Below are positions 30,242-35,946 of a stretch of DNA of 64,000 nucleotides, one piece after another. Position numbers and translations under genes: made by a program. Below the pieces are notes generated by a model, which searched no databases, was not told the origin of the DNA, and saw nothing but the letters and a program-made list of their open reading frames with translations. Position 1 is the first letter of the stretch, and each line of letters opens with the position of its first letter. Source of the stretch: Leucobacter rhizosphaerae (GTDB taxonomy: Bacteria; Actinomycetota; Actinomycetes; Actinomycetales; Microbacteriaceae); NCBI RefSeq assembly GCF_022919175.1, contig NZ_CP095043.1, positions 3,162,001 through 3,226,000 on the forward strand, given 5' to 3'.

Positions 30242-31548
30242 ACGGATACCGCGATCTTCGCGTGGCGCTGCTGGGCTGCGGCTCGGTCGGCGCCCAGGTG
30301 GCACGGCTCATCCTCGAGCACGGCGATGAGCTGGCAGCGCGCGCCGGAGCGCGGCTGACGCTCGCCGGGATCGCGGTGCGCGCGATCGACGCGCCGCGCG
30401 ACGTCGACCTGCCGCGGGACCTCTTCACGACGGACGCGGAGCGCCTCGTGCAGGGCGCCGACATCGTGATCGAGCTGATGGGAGGCATCGAGCCCGCGAA
30501 GTCGCTCATTCTGCAGGCGCTGCAGGGCGGTGCCGACGTCGTGACCGCGAACAAGGCGCTGATCGCGGCGCACGGGCCGGAGCTCGCAGAGGCCGCCGAG
30601 CAGGTCGGCGCCCAGCTCTCCTACGAGGCTGCCGTGGCGGCCGCGATCCCGATCCTCCGTCCCCTCCGCGAGAGCCTCGCCGGCGACCACATCACCCGTG
30701 TGCTCGGGATCGTGAACGGGTCGACGAACTACATCCTCGACCGCATGGATCGCTTCGGCGACAGCGCGGAGGACGCGGCGCGCCTCGCGAGCGAGCTCGG
30801 GTACCTCGAGGCCGATCCCACCCTCGACGTCGAGGGCTACGACGCGGCGCAGAAGGCGACGATCCTCGCGAGCATCGCCTTTCACACCGAGGTGCCGGTC
30901 GACGCCGTCTACCGCGAGGGCATCACGAAGATCACCGCGGCCCAGATCGATGCCGCGAAGCACGCCGGCTACGTCATCAAGCTGCTCGCGATCGCGGAGC
31001 GGATCACCTCGGCCGACGGTACCGACGGCGTCTCGGCCCGGGTGTACCCGGCGCTGATCGAGCGCGACCACCCGCTCGCGGTGGTCTACGGCGGCAAGAA
31101 CGCCGTGTTCGTCGAGGCCGAGGCCGCCGGCGAGCTCATGTTCTACGGTGCCGGCGCCGGTGGCGCTGAGACGGCCTCGGCGGTGCTGGGCGACCTGGTC
31201 TCCGCGGCGCGGCGCCACGTCGTCGGCGGCCCCGGGATCCCGGGATCGCTGCACGCGGAGCTTCCGATCCTGCCGGTGAGCGAGGTCAGCACGGCGTACC
31301 AGGTGATGCTCGAGGTGCGCGATGAGCCGGGTGTGCTCGCGGGGGTCGCGGGGATCCTCGCCACGCACGGCGTCTCGGCGGCGAGCGTCGAGCAGTCGGT
31401 CGAGCCCGGCGCGACGGGGCGGGCGACGCTCGTCATCGGCACGCACGTCGCCCGCGAGGGCGATCTCGCGGCAATGGTCGAGGCCCTGCGCACGAGCGAC
31501 ACGGTCGTGAGTGTCACGAGCATCCTCCGTCTCGAGGGACAGGCGTGA
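30238..31548 (+). CDS. hom: Homoserine dehydrogenase
   Basis: This 436-residue enzyme reduces aspartate semialdehyde to homoserine. It has an N-terminal Rossmann domain (LLGCGSVGAQVA), the conserved VTANKALIAAHG, the catalytic core GIVNGSTNYILDRM and ELGYLEADPTLDVEGYDAAQK, and a C-terminal ACT domain (MLEVRDEPGVLAGVAGIL) that mediates threonine feedback in relatives. GTG 30238 overlaps the lysA stop and its own stop overlaps the thrB start by four bases. Confidence 0.95.
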   Translation: MNGYRDLRVALLGCGSVGAQVARLILEHGDELAARAGARLTLAGIAVRAIDAPRDVDLPRDLFTTDAERLVQGADIVIELMGGIEPAKSLILQALQGGADVVTANKALIAAHGPELAEAAEQVGAQLSYEAAVAAAIPILRPLRESLAGDHITRVLGIVNGSTNYILDRMDRFGDSAEDAARLASELGYLEADPTLDVEGYDAAQKATILASIAFHTEVPVDAVYREGITKITAAQIDAAKHAGYVIKLLAIAERITSADGTDGVSARVYPALIERDHPLAVVYGGKNAVFVEAEAAGELMFYGAGAGGAETASAVLGDLVSAARRHVVGGPGIPGSLHAELPILPVSEVSTAYQVMLEVRDEPGVLAGVAGILATHGVSAASVEQSVEPGATGRATLVIGTHVAREGDLAAMVEALRTSDTVVSVTSILRLEGQA

Positions 31549-32477
31549 GCGCGGCACGCGCCGTCCGCGTCCGCGTTCCCGCCACGAGCGCCAACCTCGG
31601 CCCGGGGTTCGACACGCTGGGGATCGCGCTCGCCTACGGCGACGAGCTGACCGCCGAGACACGAGAGGCGCCGGGCGCGACGGTCGTCGTCACCGGTGTC
31701 GGCGCGGGGGAGGTGCCCACCGATGAGACGAACCTCGTCGTGCGCTCGGTCGCCCACGTCTTCGAGCGCCTCGGCCGTGAGCTGCCGGGGCTCCACATCA
31801 CGGCGCACAACCGGATCCCGCACGGGCGGGGCATGGGATCGTCGGGCTCGGCGATCGTGTCGGGCGTGATGATCGCCGCGGGGCTGCTGGAGAGCGACCC
31901 GAACGATCCGATCGCGCTCACCGAGGAGCAGTTGCTGGCGTTCGCGACGGATCTCGAGGGGCACCCCGACAACGTCGCTCCGGCGCTGTTCGGCGGGTTG
32001 ACGATCGCCTGGACCACCCCCGACGGGCCGCGGTTCAAGCGGCTCATGGTGCACCGCGGCGTCGCGCCGCTCGTGCTCGTGCCCGGCTTCACGATGTCGA
32101 CCGCGCTGGCGCGGAGCCTCCAGCCGGCGCAGGTGCCGCACGCGGACGCGGTGTTCAACGTGTCGCGCTCCGCACTGCTGATCGCCGCGCTCACCCAGAG
32201 CCCCGAGCTGCTGCTCGAGGCGACGGAGGATCGCCTGCACCAGAACTACCGCGGCGAGGCCATGCCGGCCACGCGCGATCTCATCGGAGACCTGCGCGCG
32301 GCGGGTCACGCGGCAGTGGTGTCGGGGGCAGGGCCCTCGATCCTCGTGCTCTCGAACGGCCCGGCGGAGCGGCTCGCAGCCGCCGACCTCGTCGCCGCTC
32401 GCGGAGACGAATGGCGGGCGTTGCTCCTGGCCGTCGACACCAAGGGTGCTACAGTGGAGGCGATCCCCGCGCACTAG
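31545..32477 (+). CDS. thrB: Homoserine kinase
   Basis: This 310-residue GHMP kinase phosphorylates homoserine in threonine synthesis. Motif 1 is RVPATSANLGPGFDTLG at residues about 9-25, the ATP loop is IPHGRGMGSSGSAIVSG, and motif 3 is AVVSGAGPSILVLS. The GTG start at 31545 overlaps the hom stop by four bases. No thrC is next to it; the next gene is the rho-like gene after a 200-base leader. Confidence 0.95.
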   Translation: MSAARAVRVRVPATSANLGPGFDTLGIALAYGDELTAETREAPGATVVVTGVGAGEVPTDETNLVVRSVAHVFERLGRELPGLHITAHNRIPHGRGMGSSGSAIVSGVMIAAGLLESDPNDPIALTEEQLLAFATDLEGHPDNVAPALFGGLTIAWTTPDGPRFKRLMVHRGVAPLVLVPGFTMSTALARSLQPAQVPHADAVFNVSRSALLIAALTQSPELLLEATEDRLHQNYRGEAMPATRDLIGDLRAAGHAAVVSGAGPSILVLSNGPAERLAAADLVAARGDEWRALLLAVDTKGATVEAIPAH

Positions 32478-32677: not shown

Positions 32678-34759
32678 GTGGAACTGAACGCGAATGAATC
32701 CACCCCCACCACCGCTGCGGACGCCGCTCCGGTCGCCGAGAAGCCCGTGCGTCGCCGCGCGTCGCGTCGGGTGACCGCTGCGGCCGGCGCTGCGCCGGAG
32801 GTCACCGAGGCAGCGGCTCCGGCTGCTGCCGAGGCACCCGCCGCTGCTGCTTCGGCCCCTGCTGCTGAGGCACCCGCTGCTCCGGCAGCCGAGGAGGCGC
32901 CGAAGAAGCGCGCGACGCGCAGCCGCAAGAAGGCGGCTGAATCGACCGACGCTGCTCCGGCGAGCGATGCCGCCGCTGCGGACGCGCCCGCGGAGGCCGC
33001 CGCTGCTGATGCTCCCGCTGCCGATGCTCCCGCTGCCGAGGCGCCGGCTGCCGAGGCGCCGAAGAAGCGCGCGACACGCAGCCGCAAGAAGGCCGCTGAT
33101 CCCGCAGAGGCTGCTGAGGCCGCGGGCGATGCCGCAACGGCCTCCACGGAAGCACCCGCCTCCACTGAGGTCCCGGCCGCCGACGCCGCCGCGGGCGCGA
33201 CGACCGGCGCTGCGGAGTCCGAGGCCACCGAGACCGCTGCCCCCGCGCGCCGCACCCGCGGCGGCCGCCGAGCGCAGTCCGACGCCGCAGCGGCGCCGGC
33301 CGAAGCCGAGGCCGCCGAGGCCTCCGCTCAGCAGGGCGCCAAGAACGACGGAACCGACGCCGCCGGTGACGGCGCGTCCGACAATGGCCGGTCGCGCAAC
33401 CGCCGCGGTCGCGGCGCGAAGAACGACGCCGAGCAGTCCGAGGGCGAGCAGAACGGCGGCAACGCCGATGAGTCCAAGTCGCGCGGCCAAGGCCAGAACG
33501 GCAACCAGAACCGTGGCCAGGGCCAGGGCCAGAACGGCCCGAAGAACGACGACAACTCGACCCGCTCGAGCCGCACGCGCCAGCGCGATCGCAAGCGTCG
33601 GGGTCAGGGCGACGACTTCGAGCCCGAGATCACCGAGGACGACGTGCTGCTGCCCATCGCGGGCATCCTCGACGTGCTCGACAACTACGCTTTCGTGCGC
33701 ACGAGCGGCTACCTGCCCGGTACCAGCGACGTCTACGTCTCGCTCGGACAGGTGAAGAAGTACGCGCTGCGCCGCGGCGACGCCGTGGTCGGTGCGATCC
33801 GCCAGCCGCGCGAGGGCGAGGGCGGCAGCCGTCAGAAGTACAACGCGATCGTGAAGATCGACTCCGTCAACGGCCGTCAGGTCGATGAGGACGAGACGCG
33901 CGCCGACGAGGCCGAGCTGACGCCGGTCTTCCCGCAGGAGCGCCTTCGCTTCGAAACCTCCGCCGAGCAGCTCGTCGGGCGCGGGATCGATCTGGTCGCC
34001 CCCATCGGCCTCGGCCAGCGCGGCCTCCTCGTGGTGCCGGCGCAGGCCTCGGCGACCGGCCTCCTCACCGAGCTGGCCGCCGCGGTCACCGCGAACAAGC
34101 CCGACGCGCACCTCATGGTGGTGCTGACGGACGCGCGGCCCGAGGTCGTCACCCAGCTCCAGCGCACCGTGCACGGCGAGGTCGTCGCCGCGACGTTCGA
34201 CCGGTCCGCTGAGGATCAGACGACGGTCGCCGAGCTGGCCATCGACCGTGCGCGTCGTCTCGTCGAGCTCGGCCACGACGTCGTCGTGCTGCTCGACTCG
34301 CTCAACCGTCTGGCCCGCGCCTACGCGCAGACCCAGCCGGGTGCCGTGAAGGTCGCCACCGACGTGGTCGACGAGTACGCGATCGCGCAGGTCAAGCGAC
34401 TGCTCGCCGCCGCGCGCAACCTCGAGAACGGCGGATCGCTCACGATCCTCGCGACGACGCAGACCGGCACCGGGGTGCAGGTCGACAAGACCCTGCTGCG
34501 CGAGGTGCGCCAGGTCGCCAACAGCGAGGTCCGCTTCACGAAGACGGCCATCGGGCACACTCCCGCGGTCGACCTCGGTGCCTCGCACACGCTGCAGGCC
34601 GACACGATGCTCGGGGCCGACGAGGCGCGCGTCCTCGCGCAGCTCCAGGTGTCCCTCACCGAAGACGACGCCGTCGAGAGCCTGCGGGCCCGCCTCCGCT
34701 CGTCCTCCTCGAACGCCGCGCTGCTCGCTGAGATCCAGCGCGCCGGAGGCATCTCCTAG
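32678..34759 (+). CDS. rho: Rho-like protein with lost ATPase residues
   Basis: This 693-residue protein sits at the usual rho place between thrB and prfA. Residues 1-320 are disordered: Ala/Pro-rich with two copies of APKKRATRSRKKAA, then Arg/Gly/Asn/Gln-rich. The RNA-binding domain is intact (DVLLPIAGILDVLDNYAFVRTSGYLPG). The ATPase fold aligns without gaps for about 170 residues to E. coli Rho as I recall it, but key residues are gone: the P-loop reads VPAQASAT (K181 is Gln456, K184 is Ala459), E211 is Ala486, the GGVD Q-loop is DVVD, and finger R366 is Leu639. Walker B Asp540 remains. It probably binds RNA without hydrolysing ATP; whether it forms hexamers is unknown. GTG 32678 follows AAAGGAAG; GTG 32639 is an alternative with AGGAG. 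Confidence 0.85.
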   Translation: MELNANESTPTTAADAAPVAEKPVRRRASRRVTAAAGAAPEVTEAAAPAAAEAPAAAASAPAAEAPAAPAAEEAPKKRATRSRKKAAESTDAAPASDAAAADAPAEAAAADAPAADAPAAEAPAAEAPKKRATRSRKKAADPAEAAEAAGDAATASTEAPASTEVPAADAAAGATTGAAESEATETAAPARRTRGGRRAQSDAAAAPAEAEAAEASAQQGAKNDGTDAAGDGASDNGRSRNRRGRGAKNDAEQSEGEQNGGNADESKSRGQGQNGNQNRGQGQGQNGPKNDDNSTRSSRTRQRDRKRRGQGDDFEPEITEDDVLLPIAGILDVLDNYAFVRTSGYLPGTSDVYVSLGQVKKYALRRGDAVVGAIRQPREGEGGSRQKYNAIVKIDSVNGRQVDEDETRADEAELTPVFPQERLRFETSAEQLVGRGIDLVAPIGLGQRGLLVVPAQASATGLLTELAAAVTANKPDAHLMVVLTDARPEVVTQLQRTVHGEVVAATFDRSAEDQTTVAELAIDRARRLVELGHDVVVLLDSLNRLARAYAQTQPGAVKVATDVVDEYAIAQVKRLLAAARNLENGGSLTILATTQTGTGVQVDKTLLREVRQVANSEVRFTKTAIGHTPAVDLGASHTLQADTMLGADEARVLAQLQVSLTEDDAVESLRARLRSSSSNAALLAEIQRAGGIS

Positions 34760-34866: not shown

Positions 34867-35946
34867 ATGTTCGAACAGGTCGAGGGGCTGCTCCGCGAGC
34901 ACGCGCAGCTGCAGGAGGAGCTGGCCGATCCCGCGCTGCACGCCGACGCGGCACGCGCGAAGAAGGTGAATCGCCGCTACGCCGAGCTCAGCAAGATCAA
35001 GGCCGCCTACGAGAGCTGGCAGCAGCACGGGGATGACCTCGAGGCCGCGCGCGAGCTCGCGAAGGAGGACGAGGCGTTCGCCGAGGAGATCCCGAGCCTC
35101 GAGACCGGACTCGCCGAGGCGCAGGAGAAGGTCCGCCGGCTCCTGATCCCGCGCGATCCTGACGACGCCCGCGACGTGATCCTCGAGATCAAGGGCGGTG
35201 AGGGCGGTGCCGAGTCGGCACTGTTCGGCGCCGATCTGCTCCGCATGTACATGTACTACGCGGAGTCCAAGGGCTGGAAGACCGAGATGCTCGAGAAGGA
35301 CGAGAGCGACCTCGGCGGGTACAAGAACGTGCAGATCGCGATCAAGTCGAACGCGACGGATCCCTCGCAGGGCGTGTGGGCGCACCTCAAGTACGAGGGC
35401 GGCGTGCACCGCGTGCAGCGGGTGCCCGTGACCGAGTCGCAGGGGCGCATTCACACCTCCACGACGGGGGTGCTCGTCTACCCGGAGGTCGATGAGCCGG
35501 GCGAGGTCGAGATCAACCAGAACGACCTCAAGATCGACGTGTACCGCTCGAGCGGGCCCGGCGGTCAGTCCGTGAACACGACCGACTCGGCAGTGCGCAT
35601 CACGCACCTGCCGACGGGTATCGTCGTCGCGATGCAGAACGAGAAGAGCCAGCTGCAGAACCGCGAGGCCGGCATGCGCGTGCTGCGGGCCCGCCTGCTC
35701 GCGAAGCAGCAGGAGGAGGTCGCGGCGGAGGCCAGTGCGCACCGCTCGAGCCAGATCCGCACGATGGATCGCTCCGAGCGCATCCGCACCTACAACTTCC
35801 CGGAGAACCGCATCGCGGATCACCGCACCGGGTACAAGGCGTACAACCTCGACGCGGTCATGAACGGCGCGCTCGGGCCCGTGATCGACTCGTGCATTCA
35901 GGCCGACGAGGAGGCCCGCCTCGCCGACCTCGGGTCCGAGTCCTAG
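34867..35946 (+). CDS. prfA: Peptide chain release factor 1
   Basis: This 359-residue release factor reads UAA and UAG. The peptidyl-tRNA hydrolysis motif is [17 protein letters not shown] around residue 228. The codon-recognition tripeptide region is [14 protein letters not shown], with PVT in place of the more common PAT. The length is normal. ATG 34867 is preceded by GAGAGG. It follows the rho-like gene by 107 bases and is in the order usual for Microbacteriaceae. The following 290-base gap is rich in inverted repeats. Confidence 0.95.

Follow-up and report, generated by a model that had tools for sequence, protein, structure and literature searches.

Loss of the catalytic residues in the Rho protein of Leucobacter rhizosphaerae

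The standard Rho catalytic residues are gone from the Rho protein of Leucobacter rhizosphaerae. It is the only Rho found in this genome, it lacks the motor and it is under selection, and we consider it very probable that the protein is both motor-dead and selected. The gene lies in a stretch of 64,000 nucleotides (the window) and shows the thrB-rho-prfA locus, a feature of Rho; the names of the two neighbors, taken from a preliminary description of this DNA, are presumptive. That description had called the gene a Rho by position and fold, and the locus is confirmed while the fold is predicted. The reading frame of 693 intact codons that it reported is open from the GTG to the stop, and the database copy (P0001) is likewise 693 residues long. 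An in-frame ATG upstream, at 32411, would give a product of 782 residues. The features of the locus are:

31545..32477, plus strand: open reading frame, presumably thrB, the 5' neighbor of rho; relatives are also found next to rho
32678..34759, plus strand: rho without motor residues, with a GTG start, a stop ending at 34759 and 693 codons; TIGR00767 score 373.7 bits, with PF07497 and PF00006 matches
32678..33640, plus strand: low-complexity N-terminal stretch of Rho, rich in Ala, Glu, Arg, Gly and Gln, with the basic motifs KKRATRSRKK and RRGRG
33659..33883, plus strand: Rho RNA-binding domain (PF07497), primary-site residues retained
33983..34756, plus strand: RecA-fold ATPase domain without catalytic residues (PF00006 match at 33983-34585)
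34040..34057, plus strand: degenerate P-loop, AQASAT vs. canonical PKAGKT (K181Q at 34043-34045, K184A at 34052-34054)
34130..34147, plus strand: DARPEV vs. canonical DERPEE (E211A at 34133-34135)
34295..34297, plus strand: Walker B aspartate, retained (D265 in E. coli)
34592..34594, plus strand: arginine finger R366 replaced by Leu
34867..35946, plus strand: open reading frame, presumably prfA, the 3' neighbor of rho; relatives are also found next to rho

The RNA-binding domain matches PF07497 with 85.2 bits (cut-off 27) and its signatures are intact, as the preliminary description had held, and the match to PF00006 scores 47.1 bits. The protein passes the equivalog NF006886 (334.6 vs. 315), stays under the curated cut-off of the Rho equivalog TIGR00767 (509.45), and does not reach that of NF041509, the Rho2 short paralog (334.1 vs. 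628). Its top match among solved chains is Mycobacterium tuberculosis Rho (7oqh, E 2.2e-116). The window protein is predicted to have a Rho fold, according to an AlphaFold model (pLDDT 85.4, pTM 0.86) whose input alignment included canonical Rho; when Foldseek was run with this model, the 50 matches listed were all Rho, as were the 24 highest VIA rows. The composition of the N-terminal stretch was computed on the last 200 residues ahead of the RNA-binding domain. The Pfam search of the window Rho gave two families only, and PF07498, the N-terminal Rho domain, was not found. PF07498 is also absent from the database listings of the Rho proteins inspected from Leucobacter, Klugiella and Lysinibacter (P0055, P0061, P0062 and P0064) and is listed for many other Microbacteriaceae Rho proteins. 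Since the domain is not listed in these three genera, its loss probably preceded that of the motor.

Residues were called from a phmmer alignment to E. coli Rho (chain 8q3q_a). The alignment runs without gaps from the P-loop, as reported before, up to a two-residue gap at the position of R353, and each substitution named in the preliminary description is borne out. The P-loop APPKAGKT of E. coli is VPAQASAT in the window Rho, with K181Q (Gln456), G183S (Ser458) and K184A (Ala459), and T185 is retained. DERPEE has become DARPEV, in which the catalytic Glu is replaced (E211A, Ala486), E215 is changed too, and R212, the arginine valve, is still Arg. The secondary RNA site is altered in the Q-loop, where GGVD is DVVD (Asp562 and Val563 in place of the Gly pair), and in the R-loop, where K326 is Gln. 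The arginine finger R366 is Leu639, and the Walker B aspartate (Asp265) is retained as Asp540, again as described. We take each role to belong to the single residue number given here. The roles themselves follow PMC4499133. Compared with known Rho (TIGR00767 and PRK09376; E. coli 1pv4 and 6duq; M. tuberculosis 7oqh), the window protein is thus a Rho without K181 and K184, the catalytic Glu, the arginine finger, GGVD and the R-loop Lys. Together with its score under the TIGR00767 cut-off, this sets it apart as predicted motorless.

The genome consists of 1 contig of 3,337,834 bases, is 99.62% complete, and yielded one Rho. The second TIGR00767 match in it scores 38.7 bits and is read, from this score, as an F-ATPase subunit. 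A codon pattern for DERPEE, searched on both strands, finds nothing in this genome. We also tried the pattern as a tally of motor loss across the order and rejected it: it matches in 394 of 396 genomes, a reversed-pattern control also matches often, and it still matches elsewhere in the genomes G284, G353 and G457, all of one genus, although the two Rho genes read from that genus (G284 and G457) lack DERPEE. Because of the control and these off-Rho sites, the tally is unfit to count motor loss, and only the empty result for L. rhizosphaerae is used.

Motor loss across Leucobacter

The genus set comprises 54 Leucobacter genomes, of which 52 have a readable Rho, and all 52 were read. The other two are G188 (72% complete), with no Rho match, and G192 (76% complete), with an F-ATPase-level match only; the duplicate rows L001 and L045 were left out. 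Every Leucobacter genome at least 90% complete has rho. Both K184 and E211 are missing in 38 of the 52 proteins, where K184 is replaced by G (25), A (11) or S (2) and E211 by A (37) or T (1). The position of R353 falls within a gap in all 38, the Walker B Asp is retained in 37 and R366 in 18, and the R212 position holds R in 9, Q in 23, L in 3 and H in 3. The remaining 14 proteins have K184 and E211, but K181 is found in 2, K326 in 3 and R366 in 9 of them. GGVD is retained in none of the 52, and YAFVR and RQKYN of the RNA-binding domain in all 52. The RNA-binding domain is also the most conserved segment of the 38 rows (0.94 vs. 0.90 in canonical rows), and the mean top-residue frequency of the P-loop is 0.51 in these rows vs. 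0.89 in 30 canonical rows.

The close relatives P0002-P0005, which lie on other contigs and are 87-93% identical to the window Rho, have PAQASAT or PAQASTT as P-loop, one of them with T instead of A at the K184 position, and DARPEV or DALPEV in place of DERPEE. The preliminary description had raised the question of whether all close relatives have the missing residues, and these four are also without them. The Rho of L. soli has PRESGKS as P-loop; that of Leucobacter sp. HNU has PPKAGKT and DERPEE, with GVLD for GGVD and His for R366; and the database proteins of Leucobacter sp. M11, Klugiella and Lysinibacter have every canonical Rho motif. Motor loss in Leucobacter is graded and clade-wide. 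What the preliminary description treated as one odd gene is instead a repeated evolutionary event, genus-wide and with graded intermediates. From the residues present in each protein, the secondary RNA site may have been lost first, followed by Lys181 and then by K184 and the catalytic Glu, with the arginine finger lost in some lines only. Database naming of the E211-less Leucobacter proteins is uneven: P0009 is a 'hypothetical protein', and P0006, P0007 and P0010 are each a 'transcription termination factor Rho'.

Selection on the two domains

We estimated dN/dS by the Nei-Gojobori method for 21 degenerate pairs (20 within Leucobacter and one within the neighboring genus g51) and 13 canonical pairs. 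Median values for the ATPase domain, the RNA-binding domain and prfA are 0.077, 0.017 and 0.028 in the degenerate pairs and 0.037, 0.063 and 0.038 in the canonical pairs; in the 17 pairs in which both genes are E211-less, they are 0.077, 0.024 and 0.033. The ATPase-domain value is below 0.25 in 16 of these 17 pairs and reaches 0.50 in one. When no locus is used twice, the ATPase domain exceeds the RNA-binding domain in 17 of 18 degenerate pairs (14 of them E211-less) vs. 1 of 12 canonical pairs. The unpaired tests between groups are suggestive only (p 0.054 for the ATPase domain and 0.087 for the RNA-binding domain). Both Rho domains are thus under purifying selection across Leucobacter, and the ATPase domain, at about twice the canonical dN/dS, is relaxed relative to a working Rho yet far from neutral. 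A dN/dS estimate for this branch had been proposed in the preliminary description, and the outcome of the pairwise comparison, with the graded, genus-wide change, agrees with the view given there that the gene is not a plain pseudogene and encodes an RNA-binding pseudo-ATPase.

Ten of the 52 Leucobacter Rho proteins (L094-L102 and L076) end early, about 34-52 residues short in E. coli numbering, at position 368 (seven proteins), 377 (two) or 386 (one). In the genome G096 (L076), Rho-like sequence continues beyond an in-frame TAG. The early ends and this TAG are the strongest signs of decay and look like erosion.

Possible role of a motorless Rho

It is still argued whether Rho terminates transcription mainly by motoring on RNA or by attacking RNA polymerase without the use of ATP. 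A clade whose only Rho is motorless yet selected, with graded intermediates and with intact relatives for comparison (Klugiella, Lysinibacter and Leucobacter sp. M11), is a natural test of what the two halves of Rho do. We found no report of a motor-dead Rho in Leucobacter or Microbacteriaceae among the best matches of a literature search, taken by title and the start of the abstract; a 2013 phyletic survey of Rho lies outside this set.

The closest laboratory counterparts are two Rho mutants, E. coli E211A and M. tuberculosis E386A, in which ATP hydrolysis is abolished (PMC4499133), and 37 of the 38 E211-less Leucobacter rows carry the same Glu-to-Ala change. E. coli E211A still binds ATP, whereas in Leucobacter the P-loop has been lost too, as has the arginine finger in the window protein, and by evolution. 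M. tuberculosis Rho was once proposed to terminate without motor action; its site is competent, however, and it proved to be an ATP-dependent helicase (PMC4499133), whereas the Leucobacter protein has no such site.

The explanation that we favor overall, at about even confidence, is a Rho that is selected, has no motor and serves as a static clamp, where the clamp step rests on homology. Leucobacter Rho would not bind ATP, hydrolyze it or pull along RNA. Its primary sites would still bind C-rich nascent RNA, and its N-terminal half would dock on RNA polymerase with NusA and NusG. The parts for RNA capture and polymerase docking would be retained and the rest dropped, which suggests a static clamp that holds elongation complexes back by slowing, pausing or trapping them; their release would be left to other factors or to RNA polymerase itself. 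The early, ATP-independent half of the Rho job would thus be retained and the late helicase half dropped. This division is in line with an allosteric model (PMC7819879) that has an open Rho ring even in the inactivated complex and calls on the helicase only at a later step. Against a clamp, M. tuberculosis Rho disrupts elongation complexes only when its site is competent (PMC4499133). On balance, that Leucobacter Rho acts on the elongation complex at all is a proposition to which we give slightly less than even weight. The broader proposal is a tentative one that we hold as a minority view: in Leucobacter, and separately in one or more other actinobacterial lineages, Rho may have become a static, ATP-independent factor whose N-terminal half alone traps or pauses RNA polymerase. 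If true, the two halves of Rho-dependent termination would have come apart in nature. As for what drove motor loss, escape from bicyclomycin is possible, as this antibiotic binds within the Rho ATPase pocket (PMC4499133).

The protein may instead bind RNA outside transcription and serve as a chaperone or in storage or condensates, with its RecA fold reduced to an oligomer scaffold. A chaperone that took over the locus, as suggested in the preliminary description, would look the same in these data as a static transcription factor. The RNA-binding domain and the low-complexity tail are retained while motor parts are lost, and in M. tuberculosis Rho the first 229 residues, at the N-terminus, are enough for RNA binding (PMC4167861). 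However, rho is single copy alongside a retained NusG, and the retained N-terminal half is the part that contacts the elongation complex in E. coli; neither point is decisive, and we regard such a role as unlikely.

Slow decay, in which Rho is dispensable, the motor domain is eroding and the RNA-binding domain persists for a minor reason, would fit the graded series from intact to dead, the early C-terminal ends in 10 of 52 proteins with the one in-frame stop, and the roughly twofold rise in ATPase-domain dN/dS. Rho is dispensable in some bacteria. Against decay, the E211-less pairs stay below 0.25 in the ATPase domain with one exception, their RNA-binding domain has a median of 0.024, and no Leucobacter genome at least 90% complete is without rho; we regard this reading as unlikely, too. 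A working ATPase with a rebuilt active site, for which the Walker B Asp in 37 of 38 E211-less rows and the predicted fold could speak, is very improbable: besides the P-loop, these proteins have lost the catalytic Glu, R353 and the secondary RNA site, and since no other sequence has become conserved in place of the P-loop, a substitute ATP site does not seem to be established in the 38 rows. The preliminary description had suggested an anti-Rho, or a subunit acting on a second Rho to poison or tune it, and a search for a rho with a GPPKAGKT-type P-loop and DERPEE; we reject this scarcely credible reading because no second Rho was found, either here or in the other 51 Rho-bearing genomes of Leucobacter, where the remaining TIGR00767 matches reach at most 39.8 bits. 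Sequencing or assembly error is ruled out by the same changes in P0002-P0005 on other contigs and by the genus-wide loss of K184 and E211.

Motor changes in other genera and families

We sampled 150 Microbacteriaceae genomes, with Rho read in 52 and scored only in 98; among the latter, the best match stops at a contig end in G062, G101, G146 and G044, G038 has one weak match and G099 none. The TIGR00767 cut-off is exceeded in 128 of the 150, and the low scorers that were read include further genera with altered motor residues. Degenerate or shortened Rho proteins are seen in small-genome Microbacteriaceae (0.9-1.8 Mb) and in G018 (2.4 Mb), as rows L070-L073, L075, L077-L081 and L103. On a tree of PrfA and ThrB (41 rows; a short search without bootstraps, with long branches), Leucobacter and the rows L068 and L078, from two neighboring genera, form one clade (SH-aLRT 100), whose sister is canonical Klugiella (SH-aLRT 97). 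With 'lost' defined as any change among eight motor residues, this label needs at least three state changes on the tree, and the starred branches force at least two; a 106-row FastTree places some short rows oddly. If motors were never regained, four to six losses would seem likely.

In another family of the order, two genomes (G284 and G457; L184 and L185) have PPKAGAT and DGRPEE, i.e., K184A and E211G. Ten related database clusters (P0121-P0130), which include one Pseudactinotalea (Cellulomonadaceae) cluster and one 'Actinotalea caeni', have G, S or A at E211 in all ten and A, T or S at K184 in the five that are aligned there. Judging from these residues, Pseudactinotalea and its relatives in the Cellulomonadaceae appear to be an independent loss of Rho motor residues. 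The TIGR00767 cut-off is exceeded in 390 of 396 genomes of the order, which is not a count of working motors because the G284/G457 group is also over it, and we gave up this score as an indicator of whether the motor works. A protein annotated as 'Rho' need not have Rho activity, when one group without K184 and E211 even passes the equivalog cut-off. The single-contig genome G437 (L187), of a family of the order other than the Microbacteriaceae, has a divergent Rho with 399 bits, a PTASGRS P-loop and a shortened Q-loop.

Termination signals and partner genes

Of 48 Leucobacter genomes, 45 gave a NusG match, above the cut-off every time, and its KOW consensus letters are similar in Leucobacter and canonical genomes, with several rows in the wrong frame. 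Its retention says little because the Rho face of NusG is also used by S10. RNase HI was considered as a compensating gain and set aside as uninformative, as all 22 genomes checked have it (12 from Leucobacter and 10 from other Microbacteriaceae).

Termination signals were compared in 20 pieces of 20 kb (400 kb) from each of two Leucobacter genomes (G000, L. rhizosphaerae, and G152) and two canonical genomes (G063 and G025), with crude gene calls of 278-300 genes per 400 kb for hairpins and 310-337 for skew. Three sequence tests gave no consistent difference between the two pairs of genomes. The hairpin energy after convergent genes minus that of the shuffle is -2.38 in G000, -6.08 in G152, -5.94 in G063 and -2.38 in G025. 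U-tract hairpins per 100 kb number 25.0, 42.0, 32.0 and 31.2 in the same order, every value being under its own local shuffle. The C-over-G skew after tandem genes is 0.023 and 0.052 in the canonical genomes vs. -0.005 and 0.004 in Leucobacter; this difference is not specific to gene ends, because the intragenic control differs likewise (0.040 and 0.048 vs. 0.006 and 0.022). TTTT runs after tandem gene ends are commoner in G152 (L275-L294), at 0.283 of 46 ends vs. 0.044-0.071 in the three other genomes, and this excess might reflect real intrinsic terminators in a lineage with a truncated Rho.
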